Shown here: one piece after another, positions 2,321-42,063 of the stretch
How the letters are laid out: every line of letters begins with the position of its first letter
Position numbering within the stretch: the stretch's first letter is position 1
Origin: a virus
DNA: 57,200 bases
Reading direction: 5' to 3' (one strand)
IMG/VR virus record: IMGVR_UViG_3300032331_001209
Location: 1 to 57,200 of that record
The notes under the pieces: model-generated
Databases searched by the model: none
What the model saw: the letters and a program-made list of their open reading frames with translations, nothing else
What the model was told of the DNA's origin: nothing
Program-made: the position numbers and the translations under genes

Positions 2321-3043
2321 TCAGTGCCAGACGGAGAACTCGTACTTGTAGTTGATCTTGTTGGCCTTGAGCCAGTCGTCGAAGTCGTCCCAAGAGATGC
2401 CCTTCAGCGCGTCCGGGCTGGCCGTGAGCATCTGGTAGAACTTCCGAGCCGCCGTGGCGGACGACGACTTGATGATGGTGTAGTGCGGGTCCGACTGCTC
2501 AAAATCGCTGTTGGGCGAGTAGGACTTGAACTCCAGCCACTCGGCCTTCACCGAGAAGTTCTTGCCGTACACCGTGATGGGCTCGACGTTCTCGGGCACC
2601 ACCGAGAGGTAGTTCACGAGGTCGTCGTACCACTTCACGCCAGAGAGGTCTCGCATCGGGTCGTACCCCGGCGTGGCGTGGGCTCGCACGTCGGCAAGCA
2701 CCTTCTCGCTGGTCATCGCGCCGAAGATCTTGTCCTTGATCGTGTCGAACGAGTCCATCGCGGAAATCTTGCCGTAGTGGCGGATGAGGTTGATGGGCAT
2801 CCACGCATCGAACTTCGTGGAGAAGTAGGGGTTCCGCAACTCGGACACGCGGAGCTTGCGCTTCCCCTTGGCCGGGAGCTCCTCCAGCTTGAACTCGTAG
2901 GGGTTCCACGTCAGACGCCACCCGTCACCGACGAAGACACCTTCCGTGGCCCCCGCCGTCTTCTTGAGGATGGGCAGGAGGTGAGGGCGAAGGGCGGGCT
3001 GCTGATGGGCCAGACGGATCAGCTTGGAACGGAGTGTTGACAT
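2321..3043 (-). CDS. Leader-bearing protein of unknown function (240 aa)
   Basis: The chosen start is ATG 3043, preceded by GAGAGG eight bases upstream, giving 240 residues. It opens with the conserved leader TLRSKLIRLAHQQPALR then HLLPILKKTAG (residues 3-32), shared with the genes at 4981, 14325 and 28048. The rest (for example NPYFSTKFDAWMPINLIRHYG and ISWDDFDDWLKANK) is soluble, mixed alpha/beta and not recognised. The leader suggests it is sorted to the same place as the other three proteins, perhaps the phage head interior. Upstream, TTTATATC at about 3065 may be its promoter. Confidence 0.8.
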   Translation of the reverse strand: MSTLRSKLIRLAHQQPALRPHLLPILKKTAGATEGVFVGDGWRLTWNPYEFKLEELPAKGKRKLRVSELRNPYFSTKFDAWMPINLIRHYGKISAMDSFDTIKDKIFGAMTSEKVLADVRAHATPGYDPMRDLSGVKWYDDLVNYLSVVPENVEPITVYGKNFSVKAEWLEFKSYSPNSDFEQSDPHYTIIKSSSATAARKFYQMLTASPDALKGISWDDFDDWLKANKINYKYEFSVWH

Positions 3044-3086
3044 GGGCATTCCTCTCACATCCCGCAGATATAAAGGGACCAACGAC

Positions 3087-3695
3087 GTGTGGCATGTCTA
3101 CGTCCTCACCAGCACCGTTCGGGCTGTCACCTACGTCGGCTGCACCAATGACGTGGAGCGCCGGGTGCGGCAGCACAACGGAGAACTTTCTGGGGGTGCC
3201 CGGTTCACCCAGCGGTGGCGACCGTGGGAGCTTGGGGCGGTGTACGGGCCGTTTGACGGGAGGGGTGATGCCCAGCGGGCCGAGAGGCTGGTGAAGCGCC
3301 TACGAGGCCGGGAGAGACTGTCAGCGAAGGCCAGCGCGCTCGTCCGCCCGCTCACGCTCCGCGAGGTCGCGATCCCAAGCCGCCCAAGAGGGAGCACCGT
3401 AGGCGGGCTCGATCTCCCGCCAGTGACGGCGACCATTGGGGTTGATCCCCGAGGCTTCGATGCGGGCGAGGAGACCCGCAAACACGTCGGGCACTTCGCT
3501 CCAAGCGGTGACCTCCGTGTAGTCGTGGGCGAAGCGCCGCCCCGTCGCCGTCTCCTCCGCGATCACGAACCAGAGGTGGCCGACCCGCTCGTCGCCATCC
3601 TCCGTGAGGCCGATGGAAACGAGGTTGTCGCGAAGGGCGAAGGTGAAAGAGGGAGCGTTCATGCCCTTCCCACGGAGCCGGGGCGACGGTCGTAA
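3087..3695 (+). CDS. GIY-YIG nuclease domain protein
   Basis: From GTG 3087 (AAAGGGA upstream) the protein reads VWHVYVLTSTVRAVTYVG, then CTNDVERRVRQHNG, GGARFTQRWRPWEL and a later AERLVKRL. This is the GIY-YIG core (VYVL...TYVG, arginine, QHNG, conserved Glu) of the small UPF0213/Slx1-like type. An ATG in frame at 3042 is an alternative start. The domain is complete by about residue 80, but the frame stays open to 3695. From 3321 it lies antisense to a convincing gene, so its last ~125 codons may be read-through with no selected function. It could be a free-standing mobile nuclease; no partner is visible. Confidence 0.72.
   Translation: MWHVYVLTSTVRAVTYVGCTNDVERRVRQHNGELSGGARFTQRWRPWELGAVYGPFDGRGDAQRAERLVKRLRGRERLSAKASALVRPLTLREVAIPSRPRGSTVGGLDLPPVTATIGVDPRGFDAGEETRKHVGHFAPSGDLRVVVGEAPPRRRLLRDHEPEVADPLVAILREADGNEVVAKGEGERGSVHALPTEPGRRS
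3321..3662 (-). CDS. Conserved-looking hypothetical protein (113 aa)
   Basis: The start is taken as ATG 3662, preceded by GGGAAGGGC, giving MNAPSFTFALRDNLVSIGLT and then LWFVIAEETATGRRFAHDYTE. Composition and hydrophobic pattern look like a folded alpha/beta protein, and the C-terminus is charged (DRDLAERERADERAGLR). It resembles small hypothetical proteins common in large phages, but no family was named. It is antisense to the 3' half of the GIY-YIG frame. This strand is favoured as coding because its residues look natural while the opposite frame is arginine- and proline-rich. Confidence 0.7.
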   Translation of the reverse strand: MNAPSFTFALRDNLVSIGLTEDGDERVGHLWFVIAEETATGRRFAHDYTEVTAWSEVPDVFAGLLARIEASGINPNGRRHWREIEPAYGAPSWAAWDRDLAERERADERAGLR

Positions 3696-3740
3696 CCAAG
3701 ATTCGTCGCGCCTCGTGGAAAACCCGATTTCTCGTGGGGG

Positions 3741-3759
3741 TGCGGGCGTAAGGCTGGGC
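3741..3759 (+). promoter_or_regulatory. GGGCGTAA-type promoter/operator motif
   Basis: The sequence TGCGGGCGTAAGGCTGGGC lies directly before the ATG at 3760. The GGGCGTAA core recurs before replication-type genes on the other strand. The distance from the core to the ATG is eight bases and no Shine-Dalgarno fits in it, so a leaderless transcript is possible. Function is inferred from recurrence. Confidence 0.5.
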
Positions 3760-3810
3760 ATGACGATCCCCGGTTACACCGTGACCCTCGCCTCCGTGGT
3801 GCGGTCATGA
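3760..3810 (+). CDS. Possible 16-residue leader peptide upstream of the AcrVA2-like gene
   Basis: This short frame MTIPGYTVTLASVVRS starts eight bases after a GGGCGTAA element and ends in TGA overlapping the ATG of the next gene (TCATGACC). The next gene has no obvious Shine-Dalgarno of its own, so translation of the small frame could deliver ribosomes to it. It may instead be an untranslated leader; only its position and overlap support it. Confidence 0.4.
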   Translation: MTIPGYTVTLASVVRS

Positions 3811-4991
3811 CCGCCGCCCTCCCCCGCCCCGTCGTCCACTACGAGATGATCCGGCGCGACCCGCGCAACCCGCTGCGGGTGTTCCCCGAGGACCTGAAGT
3901 CGAAGATCCTCCACGATCCCTTCAACGAGCGGGGCGACAACCCCCTGCCCGCGCAGACGGTGAGTGCGTACAGCACCACCTACAACATGATGCGTTCGGC
4001 CATCGCCTACGAACGCACGGGCCAACAAGTGGTGGTGCTGGGTCCCCGGATGCAGGAGGCGTTCGCCAACACCTCGTTGTCCGAGGTGAGCCCGGAGCAC
4101 GTTCGGTTCCCGCACTCCTGCTTCTACCTCGCCACGCCGGGAAGCAAGATCAAGCTCTGGGGCGGTAGTGACACGGGCTGGCACCGGGTCGAGGGTGCCT
4201 ACATCATGGAGGAACCCACGGAGCCGGGGGTGCTCTCCATGCTCATCTGGGGCGCGGCCAACGAACGGTCGAAGGCCCCCACGGATGATGCGACGTTCTG
4301 GTTCGCCATGAAGATCGGCAGCGGCGCGACGGTCAACCTCGACAGCGACCTTGAAAGCCGCCTCGACGACAACGAGCTCCGCGAGGGCACCCTGCGGAAC
4401 ATCGAACTGGAATCCGCCGTCACCCGCATGGACCTCGACGCGCGGGTGAACGGGGTTCTGGACAACCGCCACGCGAACATCAGCGACCGGCTCGCGAACA
4501 TCCCTCAATCCGAAGAGCTCGCGCGGGAGGTGAAGGGTCAGGTCAAGGCGTTCCTGCGGATCGCCATCAACACCCTGCTCTACATCAACAGCACATCTTG
4601 CGAGACCAAGACCTCCGACAACGAGGCCCAGCGCAAGGAGCTTGAGCAAGCCCTCGCCCGCAAGAAGCACAAGAACGGCAAGGACGCCAAGAAGCTAGGG
4701 CGCGACCTCGACAACCTGCCCAAGTACCGGGTGACGTGGATCGGCCCCACCATCGAAACAAGCGCGGGAAGTGAAACCGACCTCACGGGCACGCGCTCCG
4801 TGAAGGGCCACGTTCGCCGGGGCCATTGGCACACCTACCGGGTGGGGCCGCGAAAGACCGAGGCTGGCGAGAAGATCGACGCCGCGCTGCGGAAGTCGTC
4901 GCTGAAGTGGATCGCCCCCGTGTGGGTCGGGAGCGGTGCGCCCGAGGACAAGCCCCGTGTCTACGGGGTGAGGGAACCCGTCAGCCCGTGA
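3807..4991 (+). CDS. AcrVA2-like protein
   Basis: This 394-residue protein's C-terminal section carries SVKGHVRRGHWHTYRVGPRK, then SSLKWIAPVWVG. That is the RAHWH.Y..G...L.WI.P pattern I associate with the AcrVA2 family. The preceding hydrophobic stretch LRIAINTLLYINSTSCE followed by a lysine-rich segment also fits that family. The best known member, from Moraxella mobile elements, blocks Cas12a by acting on its nascent N-terminus and mRNA; most distant relatives have no tested activity. Here the gene stands alone on the plus strand behind a GGGCGTAA element, which suggests early expression. It is somewhat longer than the founding member. Anti-CRISPR activity is inference. Confidence 0.68.
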   Translation: MTAALPRPVVHYEMIRRDPRNPLRVFPEDLKSKILHDPFNERGDNPLPAQTVSAYSTTYNMMRSAIAYERTGQQVVVLGPRMQEAFANTSLSEVSPEHVRFPHSCFYLATPGSKIKLWGGSDTGWHRVEGAYIMEEPTEPGVLSMLIWGAANERSKAPTDDATFWFAMKIGSGATVNLDSDLESRLDDNELREGTLRNIELESAVTRMDLDARVNGVLDNRHANISDRLANIPQSEELAREVKGQVKAFLRIAINTLLYINSTSCETKTSDNEAQRKELEQALARKKHKNGKDAKKLGRDLDNLPKYRVTWIGPTIETSAGSETDLTGTRSVKGHVRRGHWHTYRVGPRKTEAGEKIDAALRKSSLKWIAPVWVGSGAPEDKPRVYGVREPVSP

Positions 4992-5385
4992 GCTTCGACA
5001 GGAGGGTGGGCTTGAAGTACAAGTCGCGCTCGACCAGCGGGAGCCCGCGACGGTTCGCGTTCTCCAGTTCCGACAGGGAGATGTAGCCGAGCTCACCACC
5101 ACCGTGGCCGAGGTCCGCCCAGCCAAACATCTCGTCCGCCCCGTCCCACTCGGTGATGTACCAAGTCGCCCCGCTGTACGGGGAGAAGAGCTTGACGTAG
5201 GCGATGGGGTCCGCGACGTTCTCCTGCGCCCGCATCCGAGGGACCTTCACGCCCTTGGGCATGAGGGTGTGCTTCCGCACCCGGTCGAGGGGCGACGCCG
5301 CTTCCTTCAGCAGCGGAAGAAGGTGGGAGCGCAGCCCGGGCGTCTCGTGGGCGAGACGGATCAGCTTGGTGCGAAGGGTGGTCAC
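4981..5385 (-). CDS. Leader-bearing DUF2958 protein
   Basis: The start is GTG 5385 with TAGGAGA eight bases upstream, giving 134 residues. It begins with TTLRTKLIRLAHETPGLR then HLLPLLKEAAS, the shared leader. From about residue 55 it has the DUF2958 pattern: ADPIAYVKLFSPYSGATWYI, ELGYISLSELE and LVERDLYFKPTLLSKL. DUF2958 is widespread on plasmids and conjugative elements with no known reaction. A leader joined to a plasmid-type domain suggests a domain recruited to the sorting system. The 3' end overlaps the convergent AcrVA2-like gene by 11 bases. A late-type promoter lies at 5411-5430. Confidence 0.85.
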   Translation of the reverse strand: MTTLRTKLIRLAHETPGLRSHLLPLLKEAASPLDRVRKHTLMPKGVKVPRMRAQENVADPIAYVKLFSPYSGATWYITEWDGADEMFGWADLGHGGGELGYISLSELENANRRGLPLVERDLYFKPTLLSKLTG

Positions 5386-14324: not shown

Positions 14325-14696
14325 TCACCTTGGGGTCATGCCACTGGGAACTTCCCAGCCTCGCACGAAGTCCTCCCAGTAACCGGGTTGCCACCGAGCG
14401 ATGTAAGGCAGAGCTTTCGTGACGAGCTCCTTCCGTGCGTCCGCCTCTGAGGCAAACAGAACGGGGGTGTCGTCTCTCGAAAAATCCATCGAGTGCTTCC
14501 AGCCATCCCCCGTCCAGAGAGTCTCCCCCTTCCGAGTGACCAGCTTGATCGCGTAGGTGCGGTCAGCCTTCGACCACAGGGAGACGCTGGGGTTGGTCGT
14601 GACTGCCGCCGTCTTGAGGAGGGGTAGGAGATGTGGACGGAGAGCCGGATTGGCATGGGCCAACCGGATGACCTTGGATCGAAGATTGTCGCTCAC
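14325..14696 (-). CDS. Leader-bearing protein of unknown function (123 aa)
   Basis: Starting at GTG 14696 with GAGG five bases upstream, it opens with LRSKVIRLAHANPALR then HLLPLLKTAAV, the shared leader. The remaining ~85 residues (AIKLVTRKGETLWTGDGWKH, RKELVTKALPYIARWQPGYW) are unrecognised. It lies in the tail operon with a late-type promoter at 14714-14736 and another late promoter immediately downstream, so it is a self-contained late cassette. Packaging with the virion is inferred from the leader. Confidence 0.8.
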   Translation of the reverse strand: MSDNLRSKVIRLAHANPALRPHLLPLLKTAAVTTNPSVSLWSKADRTYAIKLVTRKGETLWTGDGWKHSMDFSRDDTPVLFASEADARKELVTKALPYIARWQPGYWEDFVRGWEVPSGMTPR

Positions 14697-28047: not shown

Positions 28048-28527
28048 TCAGCTTCCAGCCAGATAATCGCGCAGCCGATCACCCACCAACTTGGCAATGT
28101 CCGCACCCAGTTTCGGGACGGACACATGAGACCAGTAGTTGTTGAAGTACTTCAGCGGGACTTTCACCGCGACGTTCTTCCCGCCACGCCCAAAAGTGTA
28201 CTCCACCGTGTAGTTCTCTGTGGTGTCAACATCGACCCAGATGTAGTCGTTGCCTTTGGGGTCGTCAGAGAAGTACCCCACGATCTCCAACTTCAGCGAG
28301 TTGGGGATGAGGTTCAGGGCGTCAAACCTGAGAACCCCCCTGAACCCTGCATCCAATTGGTTGAGGATGGCGTTGCCAAGGTCGCGGGTCAGATTCTTTT
28401 TGGCACCGTAGAGAGAATCGGCGTCGGGTGCTGCCGTCTTGGTGAGGAGGGGCATGAGGTGCGAACGGAGCTCCGGGTTGGTGTGAGCCAGCCGGATGAT
28501 CTTGGAACGGAGTGCTTGGTCGCTCAT
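28048..28527 (-). CDS. Leader-bearing protein of unknown function (159 aa)
   Basis: From ATG 28527 it opens with ALRSKIIRLAHTNPELR then HLMPLLTKTAA, the shared leader. The remainder (DADSLYGAKKNLTRDLGNAI, RFDALNLIPNSLKLEIVGYF, YFNNYWSHVSVPKLGADIAK) is a compact alpha/beta protein with no named family. A late-type promoter sits at 28555-28575. It is the fourth protein with the leader and directly follows the phosphatidylserine-decarboxylase-like gene, tying the leader to that group of enzymes. Confidence 0.8.
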   Translation of the reverse strand: MSDQALRSKIIRLAHTNPELRSHLMPLLTKTAAPDADSLYGAKKNLTRDLGNAILNQLDAGFRGVLRFDALNLIPNSLKLEIVGYFSDDPKGNDYIWVDVDTTENYTVEYTFGRGGKNVAVKVPLKYFNNYWSHVSVPKLGADIAKLVGDRLRDYLAGS

Positions 28528-39406: not shown

Positions 39407-42063
39407 ACATCACCTACCATCGGGAGCCTACCTCCCCAGACCGTCGAAATCGCCCCGGTGAGGTCTTCACCGTTCGGACCCTCCACCTTCAGCTTCGCGG
39501 TCGGGCACTTGTCACCCGCCGCGATCATCCGCGCCAGAGGCTCGATCTCGCCCAAGGTAAAGGTCTTTACCTTGTAGGTGAGGGTCGGCATTTCCGGCTT
39601 CTTTTCAACGGGTTGTGCCTCGCCCTTGGGCTTGTCGGTCTTCGGGCCGATGCCCTTGAAACACCCGTCGAGCTCCTTCGGGCACTCGCCCTTCTTGCGG
39701 ATCTTCTTGAGGTCCCACGGCACGGTCCAGTCTGGACCCATCTCCACGTCGGACGTGAGCGGGACACGCCAGCCCAGCTTGAGGAGGGCGTCGTTGCGGC
39801 ACATGATCCCCACGAACAGGTCGATGGCCTCCTCCAGAATGTCCTTGTCGATCTCAAACACGAGCTCGTCGTGCATCGTGATGAGCATGTGGACCTTCTC
39901 CAACCACCCGCGCTTCTTGCACTCTTTGTAGATGAGCGCCATTGCGATCTTGGTGATGTCGGCGCTCGTGCCTTGGATCGGGCCGTTCACGGCGTTGCGT
40001 TCGGCCTTGGCCCGGAACCCGCCCAGTTCGTGGTCGATGTCGGGCAGCGGGTAGCGCCGTCCGAAAGCCGTCGTGACGAACTTGTGCTCCTTGGCGTACA
40101 GGGCTTGGCTCTTCCACCAGCCCGACAGGACATTGTAGGTCTTGTCGAACTGCTCCTTGATGCGCCAGCCTTCGTTCTTGTCGCACCCCGTCGCCGTCAC
40201 CACGGCGTTGCCAGACCCGCCGTAGCACAAGGCGAAGTTGCACGCCTTGGCGAAGCCACGAAGCTGCTTCCACTCGGGCTTCTTCGGCGCGTCCTCCCCG
40301 TAGATGGACAGGGCCGTGAGAGTGTGGAGGTCACCGATCTTGTCGCTCCCGCAGTCCGGGCAGAACGGCGGCGGGGCCACGGGCACGGGGTTGGCCACCG
40401 TGGGCATGTCGAACATCTTGTCGCAGCCCGAGCAGTGGAAGAACTCGGTGAGCCACTTGGGATCGCCAGAGATGTTGGTCACGATGCGGAGCTCGACGCC
40501 GCTGAAGTCGATGGCGGTGAGTACCTTCCCCGGTCGGGCGATGATGCACTCCCTCACCCGGGCGAGGCACTCGGGACGGTTGGGGTCGTAGGTCGCGGGC
40601 GTCCCGTGGAACGGAAACCGGGTGCCCCCGTCCATCGACGGGTCTTTGCTGGACGGCGCGTTGAAGCGCCCCGTCTCGATGCTGTGGGCGTTGAAGTACG
40701 CGCGGAGGGTGCCGTCCGGGTGTGCGTCCTCGACGATGGGCAGGAGGTACGTCGAGAGAGCCTTGCTCACCTCACGGAACCGCTTGATCTTGGCGGCGAA
40801 GGGGAACTTGTCGCCCACCTTCTCCAGCACCTCCTCCAGCACGTCCTTCGACGTGTCCACCTGCCCGGACTTCTCCGTGGCGACGAGCCCCGGCACCTTG
40901 CACTCGCGGAGGAGCTTGCCAAGCTGCTGCGCCGACAACACGTCGTAGACCACCGGGAACTCCACGTCCTCGGTCGCCCCCTTGGCGGTGATCGACGCCA
41001 CCCGCTTGGAAACCGTCGCCACCTTGCCCTTCTCCCGCATGGGGTCGAGCTTGGCCTTCGTCGCAGCCGTCCGTGTCACGTCGATGCGGTCGGTGTAGCT
41101 GGGGGTCACCACCTCGGGATCGAACCGCAGCGACTCCATCCCCTCTACGGAGCCCCGGAGCAACCTGTAATAGCCGGGGCGAATGTCCCGGCCCACGAGG
41201 GCCGACGAGCTCTCGTACACCTCCTCCAGCGCCGCGATCCACTCCCGCTGGCCGATGCGGATGAGCTCCTTGGTCTTCTCTTGGTCCGTGTAGATGCGCG
41301 CCCGCTCCATCCACCGGGTGCTCGCCACGCAGAGCTTCTCGATGGTGTAGACGGTGCCCTGCCCCAGCACGCCCATGCTTGGTTGCAGCACCTCCGGGGC
41401 GAGCTTCTGGTACAGGTTCCATGTGCAGATGGCGTCGCTGGCCCCGTACCACGTCACGGGCTCCCACGACGGGTCGAGCTCCGAGAAGTCCAGCCCGCCT
41501 TTGCGCTTGTCCTCGGGGAAGAGCTCGTCGAGCTCGATCATCTCCATGCCGAGCTCGGTCTTGGCGAGGTGCTTCAGCCCCTTGGACTTCGACCGGGTGT
41601 CCCGCAGGTAGGCGAGGATCAGCGTGTCGTCCCACTTCTTGGGCTCGTCCCACTCACCGATGGGCTCGCCGCCGCAGTTTTGCAGGAACTCTTGGTCGAA
41701 CTTCCCGTTGTGGAACACGGCCACGGCGGGGCTGTTCACCAACCTCTGCATCTCCCGCTTCCACAGCGACCACGACACGTTCTCGCCCGTCTTGTGGCGC
41801 AGCGGGATGTAGTACCCTCGCTTGCCGTCGGGAGACAGGCAGCACCCGACGATCTTCGACATCGTCTCACCGTCGTAGACGCAGGAGTTCAGCCCGGAGG
41901 TCTCAAGGTCGAGGGCGTAACGCCCGCCCGCGATGCAGGCGTCGATGATCCCGGGGAGGGTCTCGTTCGTGGCGCGGGCGAGGGTGTACTCGCCCCCCTG
42001 CATCCACGACTTCGGCTCGACCTTGAGGGTGTTGGAGTCTTGGAGGAACGTGAACAGGTCCAT
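39403..42063 (-). CDS. polA: Family A DNA polymerase with proofreading exonuclease and zinc-ribbon insertion
   Basis: From ATG 42063 it is 886 residues and replicates phage DNA. The 3'-5' exonuclease has LDLETSG (51-57), HNGKFDQEFL (118-127) and YGASDAICTW (206-215). The polymerase has TGRFNAPSSKD (464-474), motif A AIDFSGVELRI (517-527, D519), motif B RGFAKACNFALCYG (602-615) and motif C TMHDELVFEI (729-738). Between motifs A and B sits an insertion with C544-x2-C547 and C568-x2-C571, a probable zinc ribbon, which standard Pol I lacks. A C-terminal ~90-residue extension (LTYKVKTFTLGEIEPLAR) is also extra. A GGGCGTAACGT element precedes the ATG by ten bases with no Shine-Dalgarno; a GTG at 42072 is an alternative start. 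Confidence 0.93.
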   Translation of the reverse strand: MDLFTFLQDSNTLKVEPKSWMQGGEYTLARATNETLPGIIDACIAGGRYALDLETSGLNSCVYDGETMSKIVGCCLSPDGKRGYYIPLRHKTGENVSWSLWKREMQRLVNSPAVAVFHNGKFDQEFLQNCGGEPIGEWDEPKKWDDTLILAYLRDTRSKSKGLKHLAKTELGMEMIELDELFPEDKRKGGLDFSELDPSWEPVTWYGASDAICTWNLYQKLAPEVLQPSMGVLGQGTVYTIEKLCVASTRWMERARIYTDQEKTKELIRIGQREWIAALEEVYESSSALVGRDIRPGYYRLLRGSVEGMESLRFDPEVVTPSYTDRIDVTRTAATKAKLDPMREKGKVATVSKRVASITAKGATEDVEFPVVYDVLSAQQLGKLLRECKVPGLVATEKSGQVDTSKDVLEEVLEKVGDKFPFAAKIKRFREVSKALSTYLLPIVEDAHPDGTLRAYFNAHSIETGRFNAPSSKDPSMDGGTRFPFHGTPATYDPNRPECLARVRECIIARPGKVLTAIDFSGVELRIVTNISGDPKWLTEFFHCSGCDKMFDMPTVANPVPVAPPPFCPDCGSDKIGDLHTLTALSIYGEDAPKKPEWKQLRGFAKACNFALCYGGSGNAVVTATGCDKNEGWRIKEQFDKTYNVLSGWWKSQALYAKEHKFVTTAFGRRYPLPDIDHELGGFRAKAERNAVNGPIQGTSADITKIAMALIYKECKKRGWLEKVHMLITMHDELVFEIDKDILEEAIDLFVGIMCRNDALLKLGWRVPLTSDVEMGPDWTVPWDLKKIRKKGECPKELDGCFKGIGPKTDKPKGEAQPVEKKPEMPTLTYKVKTFTLGEIEPLARMIAAGDKCPTAKLKVEGPNGEDLTGAISTVWGGRLPMVGDV

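Follow-up and report, generated by a model that had tools for sequence, protein, structure and literature searches.

An AcrVA2/FinQ-superfamily protein in a large-phage lineage and a proposed role in gene silencing

The window (the whole 57,200-base virus record that was analysed) carried a gene whose product belongs, with very little room for doubt, to the AcrVA2/FinQ superfamily. As judged from sequence comparison, the protein represents a deep separate clade of six phage copies and is not an orthologue of AcrVA2. On the same kind of evidence, FinQ, with which IncI1 plasmids inhibit the transfer genes of F, is a homologue of AcrVA2. The FinQ relationship is new here; a literature search, with preprints outside its scope, found no paper naming both FinQ and AcrVA2, nor one naming FinQ together with anti-CRISPR. 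By analogy with the studied members, we suggest that the phage protein may silence a target other than Cas12a in a peptide-directed, translation-coupled manner, a reading to which we give about even chances.

The gene and its surroundings

The 57,200-base record is probably a fragment. Its genes include a family A DNA polymerase (PolA), an N6/N4 methylase, an SNF2-type helicase, PhoH, a thymidine kinase, a DnaB-like helicase and a baseplate wedge protein. The nearest polymerase in the phage collection, at 64% identity, was from LR745208.1, an unannotated metagenomic phage of 485 kb. Together, the gene content and this polymerase match indicate a large-phage lineage.

The AcrVA2-like ORF was as the earlier note described it in position, strand and length (Table 1). 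Its G+C content by codon position (0.62/0.46/0.89) followed the same pattern as the other window genes. Copies with 84% identity (L002 and L003) were found at the matching place of two IMG/VR contigs (266 kb and 105 kb), where they sit between homologous neighbouring genes. Compared with these two copies, the gene had dN/dS values of 0.25 and 0.28 and is, by this measure, under purifying selection. Remoter copies in L004, L008 and L010 had 41-42% and 28% identity, and each of six records held one superfamily copy. Three additional loci (L006, L007 and L009) were dropped as repeats of L002, L003 and L004.

The gene stands alone on the plus strand only in a loose sense. A GIY-YIG endonuclease ORF lies upstream on the same strand, a 16-aa plus-strand ORF separates the GGGCGTAA element from the gene, and an extra third plus-strand gene is found between in two close relatives. 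The GIY-YIG ORF overlaps a plausible minus-strand ORF (3321-3761), and its tail past approximately residue 97 was unlike the relatives. The GIY-YIG protein of L002 and L003 ends after about 97 aa and is followed by a 165-aa plus-strand gene. The overlap between the 16-aa ORF and the AcrVA2-like gene suggests possible translational coupling of the two. No such ORF was seen before the gene in L002 or L003.

Table 1. Positions of the gene, its neighbours and associated sequence elements in the window
Feature	Position	Strand	Remarks
Left neighbour	2321..3046	-	same N-terminal tag as 4981..5385
GIY-YIG endonuclease ORF	3042..3695	+	upstream of the AcrVA2-like gene; domain at residues 17-90
GGGCGTAA start-proximal element	3744..3751	+	55 nt before gene ATG; conserved ahead of the L002 and L003 copies
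16-aa upstream ORF MTIPGYTVTLASVVRS	3760..3810	+	starts 8 nt past the element; stop overlaps AcrVA2-like gene start (ATGA)
AcrVA2/FinQ-superfamily gene	3807..4991	+	394 aa; ATG to TGA; ORF, profile and fold (predicted) evidence
HVRRGHWH signature	4809..4832	+	codons 335-342; HxRRGHWH superfamily-wide
Convergent neighbour	4981..5385	-	LRTKLIRLAHETPGLRSHLLPLL N-terminal tag
N-terminal tag LRxKLIRLAHxxPxLRxHLLPLL	2960-3040, 5299-5382, 14607-14687, 28441-28515	all -	

The window contained 10 occurrences of GGGCGTAA, where 1.05 were expected, and 0 of 100 shuffles reached this count. Seven of the 10 sites had an ATG within 20 nt, compared with 16% of positions. The pattern GGGCGTAA-N5-18-ATG was counted 7 times in the window, 36 times in the 266-kb record and 12 times in the 105-kb record, whereas its reverse was counted 0, 3 and 2 times. 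It was found once each in the remoter records G003 and G004 (reversed pattern 0 and 1). Of the seven window instances, the one at 41913 runs antisense within the polymerase gene and is probably a spurious match. The genes for the methylase, polymerase and SNF2 helicase, and two further replication-region genes, also have the element at their starts. Three of the 10 sites were without an assigned gene start; one site lies 39 nt before a 142-aa gene. Variants precede the AcrVA2-like gene in L004 (GGCGTAAG) and in L008 (AGCGTAAG). The element was observed lineage-wide (G001 and G002; sites 5423 and 5985 of L002), often as GGGCGTAACGTC-N-CATG and mostly 8-12 nt before the ATG. Its placement fits expression with the replication genes, and it is a putative promoter or translation signal. 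The earlier claim of an early-type promoter is half supported, in that the element is conserved before the gene in relatives and also precedes replication-type genes, while a role as an early promoter is putative.

Homology to AcrVA2 and FinQ

Searched alone against PDB sequences with phmmer, the window protein had no match at E values up to 10, and nothing relevant was found in Pfam, NCBIfam or PADLOC. A match to NorR (NCBIfam, E 0.0082) was far below the cut-off and was set aside. Five superfamily members, FinQ included, likewise reached no model in Pfam or NCBIfam. The sole PHROG family matched was phrog_6160 (E 1.3e-9, residues 211-379); the match was confined to the C-terminal half, whereas a gut-phage member matched it along its whole length (3e-58). 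A gut-phage relative in MT835573, with 32% identity to the window protein over residues 239-385, matched AcrVA2 (7ci1) at E 8.7e-9.

A profile of 13 rows (the window protein and 12 IMG/VR relatives) had 7ci1 as its sole match in all of PDB (E 1.2e-23, in two stretches). The E value to 7ci1 was 0.0013 with a five-row profile and 0.55 with the six rows of the window clade alone, for which 7ci1 was still the sole PDB match. Using hhalign, the window clade aligned with AcrVA2/FinQ-type rows at E 5.7e-23 over 303 columns, and a profile-profile comparison with seven other viral relatives gave E 1e-22 over 246 columns. Residues 1-300 alone aligned with the AcrVA2/FinQ-type rows at E 5.6e-9 (best of 30 column shuffles 0.036), and thus the link to AcrVA2 is not confined to the C-terminal motif; homology at profile level runs along the chain. 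Against three rows (the AcrVA2 orthologue, Y11 and FinQ), the C-terminal third was significant alone (E 8.2e-11) and residues 1-300 were not (E 0.021). The profile search, on which the earlier note had staked its assignment, does link the protein to AcrVA2.

The C-terminal residues HWHTYRVGPRK...LKWIAPVWVG are present as that note quoted them. The window protein bears the superfamily signature HxR(R/K)xH(W)H ... G ... W..P, which is common to 24 superfamily rows. Invariant across these rows were P102, G130, G313, H335, R337, H340 and G347, with H342 in 23 and W341 in 22 of the 24.

The predicted fold agrees with this assignment. The window model (pLDDT 69, pTM 0.73), weakest at its C-terminal end with pLDDT 45 and below past residue 370, matched 7ci1 with a Foldseek E value of 6.4e-7 and, over 242 residues, with Z 14.7 and an rmsd of 4.0; the closest unrelated fold had Z 3.2. 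Since the alignment used for this model contained AcrVA2-near rows, the prediction was repeated with the window clade only. This second model was poor (pLDDT 47.8, pTM 0.50), and its match to 7ci1, again ranked first with Z 11.0 over 189 residues (8 to 318; next unrelated fold 3.0) and Foldseek E 3.9e-4, is therefore a control and not a structure. RNA-phage coat proteins, with Z about 3 to both models, were taken as noise. Structure prediction, a check that the earlier note had proposed, thus yielded a predicted fold that matches 7ci1.

A tree of 24 proteins united the six window-clade rows (100/100), with a stem as long as 2.45 changes per column, and placed Shewanella Y11 together with the AcrVA2 orthologue of Moraxella (Mcat4; E 1.9e-125 to 7ci1) in another group (100/100). 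The deep order in this tree was unresolved, with long branches for FinQ, Dickeya AD1 and two plasmid rows. The window protein had 13% identity to the AcrVA2 orthologue row and did not group with it as an orthologue. The term AcrVA2-like therefore holds for the profile link and the predicted fold, but the protein is in a separate deep clade and is not AcrVA2 itself. Like AcrVA2 (a Moraxella prophage anti-CRISPR; 7ci1, 7ci2), it is phage-borne, has the HxRRGHWH...G...W..P C-terminus and is predicted to share the fold over most of the chain. Unlike AcrVA2, it is 70 aa longer and is placed in its own clade on a long branch, without a Moraxella link, and the clade has many specific residues (GPRMQEAFANT, FYLATP, WGGxxTxWH). 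ORF43 of Shewanella phage vB_SbaS_Y11 is also a phage-borne superfamily member, named AcrVA2 without a functional test, but unlike the window clade it joins Moraxella AcrVA2.

Proteins of huge phages that cluster with AcrVA2 were noted in 2020 (PMC7162821); AcrVA2-like proteins in such phages are thus not new in kind. Many 260-kb phages of Erwinia and Dickeya (Alexandravirus-type jumbo phages) also had superfamily members, at a near-constant position of about 197-209 kb and in every case annotated as hypothetical. In Erwinia phage RisingSun (MF459646.1, 128293-129120), a superfamily match (H141, E 2e-4) lies under a “putative mycothiosynthase” gene, a label that is probably a mis-annotation. 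A window-clade scan of genome contigs detected no relative among 81 pattern matches.

FinQ (L019, on an IncI1 plasmid beside trbA) matched AcrVA2 7ci1 directly at E 3.8e-17, in two collinear stretches. A plasmid search with the relative L013 detected 664 records, 571 of them typed as conjugative, and 27 of 40 rows sampled across the plasmid ranking were annotated as FinQ. Superfamily matches were found in 70 phage records. FinQ shares with the window protein the superfamily and a RPHIRRGHWHTYWTG type C-terminus. It differs in its location on conjugative plasmids and in acting on the F tra operon, whereas the window gene belongs to a phage record, one with genes for PolA, a DnaB-like helicase and a baseplate. 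Sharing detectable between the window clade and the AcrVA2/Y11/FinQ rows was limited to the C-terminal third.

Proposed mode of action and alternatives

According to PMC13131331, AcrVA2 recognises the nascent N-terminus of Cas12a (LSKT) and triggers translation-dependent decay of cas12a mRNA, described there as the first documented prokaryotic inhibition of this type; it also binds an internal Cas12a peptide, 618-634 (7ci2). FinQ is reported to halt transcripts of the tra operon at several sites (PMC8744291), and reviews describe it as acting on transcription, Rho-independently, and not as an mRNA-decay factor. Because one phage gene (AcrVA2) and one plasmid gene (FinQ) of the superfamily each make specific transcripts disappear, we propose that the phage protein would work like AcrVA2, recognising a short peptide of a chosen protein during its synthesis. 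The invariant C-terminal HxRRGHWH module would then bring about loss of the mRNA, and one or a few genes would be silenced. The target is probably not Cas12a and may instead be a gene of the host or of a rival element. Expression would be from the start-proximal GGGCGTAA signal, and since this signal is common to the phage DNA-metabolism genes, the protein is probably made before the late structural genes.

More tentatively, and with the chances somewhat against it, AcrVA2 and FinQ may both belong to a single ancient class of mRNA silencers, peptide-directed and coupled to translation, that phages and conjugative plasmids use against hosts and rivals. The “multiple-site transcription termination” of FinQ would then be loss of translated tra mRNA, with Cas12a as just one target among many and the huge-phage clade as a third arm with a new target. 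As FinQ is in the same superfamily, the general role of the family can be tested through a second, independently studied member with a non-CRISPR target, in laboratory E. coli and F. If the proposal is true, mobile elements carry a wider class of programmable gene silencers, to which the phage gene points.

The protein may instead have kept the peptide-binding fold of the family and inhibit a host protein simply by binding to it, with no loss of mRNA. This would suit the binding of an internal Cas12a peptide by AcrVA2 (PMC13131331) and the weakness of the window model at its C-terminal end. However, conservation is strongest in the C-terminal HxRRGHWH module, and both studied members, AcrVA2 and FinQ, lower their target mRNA. 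We consider this alternative rather unlikely.

A genuine Cas12a anti-CRISPR, which would imply a host with type V-A CRISPR and would make the protein the AcrVA2 of this phage, is improbable. The predicted fold, the C-terminal signature and the huge-phage proteins reported to cluster with AcrVA2 (PMC7162821) are consistent with it, but the deep separation of the clade and the 13% identity are not, and neither is the distribution of Cas12a. Among sequenced genomes, 65 pattern matches yielded 54 loci with a superfamily member. For the Cas12a profile search, 50 of these loci were entered (L079, L081 and L082 were omitted, as was L051, which shares a contig with L047), and without L076 the search covered 49 genomes. 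Cas12a was detected in one of the 49, Moraxella lacunata. This count does not amount to a test for depletion, because Cas12a is generally rare and some of the genomes are metagenome drafts. The family thus does not depend on Cas12a for its presence, and the earlier statement that homologues occur where there is no Cas12a was borne out. Among phage records the count was 0 of 7, in a run with no control match, while the same profile did match Moraxella lacunata. Superfamily members are also found on plasmids of E. coli, a species not known to have type V CRISPR.

A role in regulating genes of the phage itself, such as timing or capping the production of tagged proteins through recognition of the N-terminal tag of the neighbours, seems very unlikely. 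Both minus-strand neighbours carry the tag, and tags were found in all six records with the gene (27 matches). However, LR745208.1 has 11 tag places and no superfamily member, and tagged genes thus do not need it; the tags also resemble a targeting leader. Least credible of all is that HxRRGHWH is a mobile RNA- or ribosome-binding domain joined to a chain otherwise unrelated to AcrVA2. Most direct matches do fall in the C-terminal third, but residues 1-300 align alone in hhalign and residues 8-318 of the clade-only model match 7ci1.

The tag itself is common to four otherwise different minus-strand proteins of the window, and two of its four copies flank the AcrVA2-like gene. It resembles a leader for targeting or packaging and may be compared with capsid-targeting sequences.
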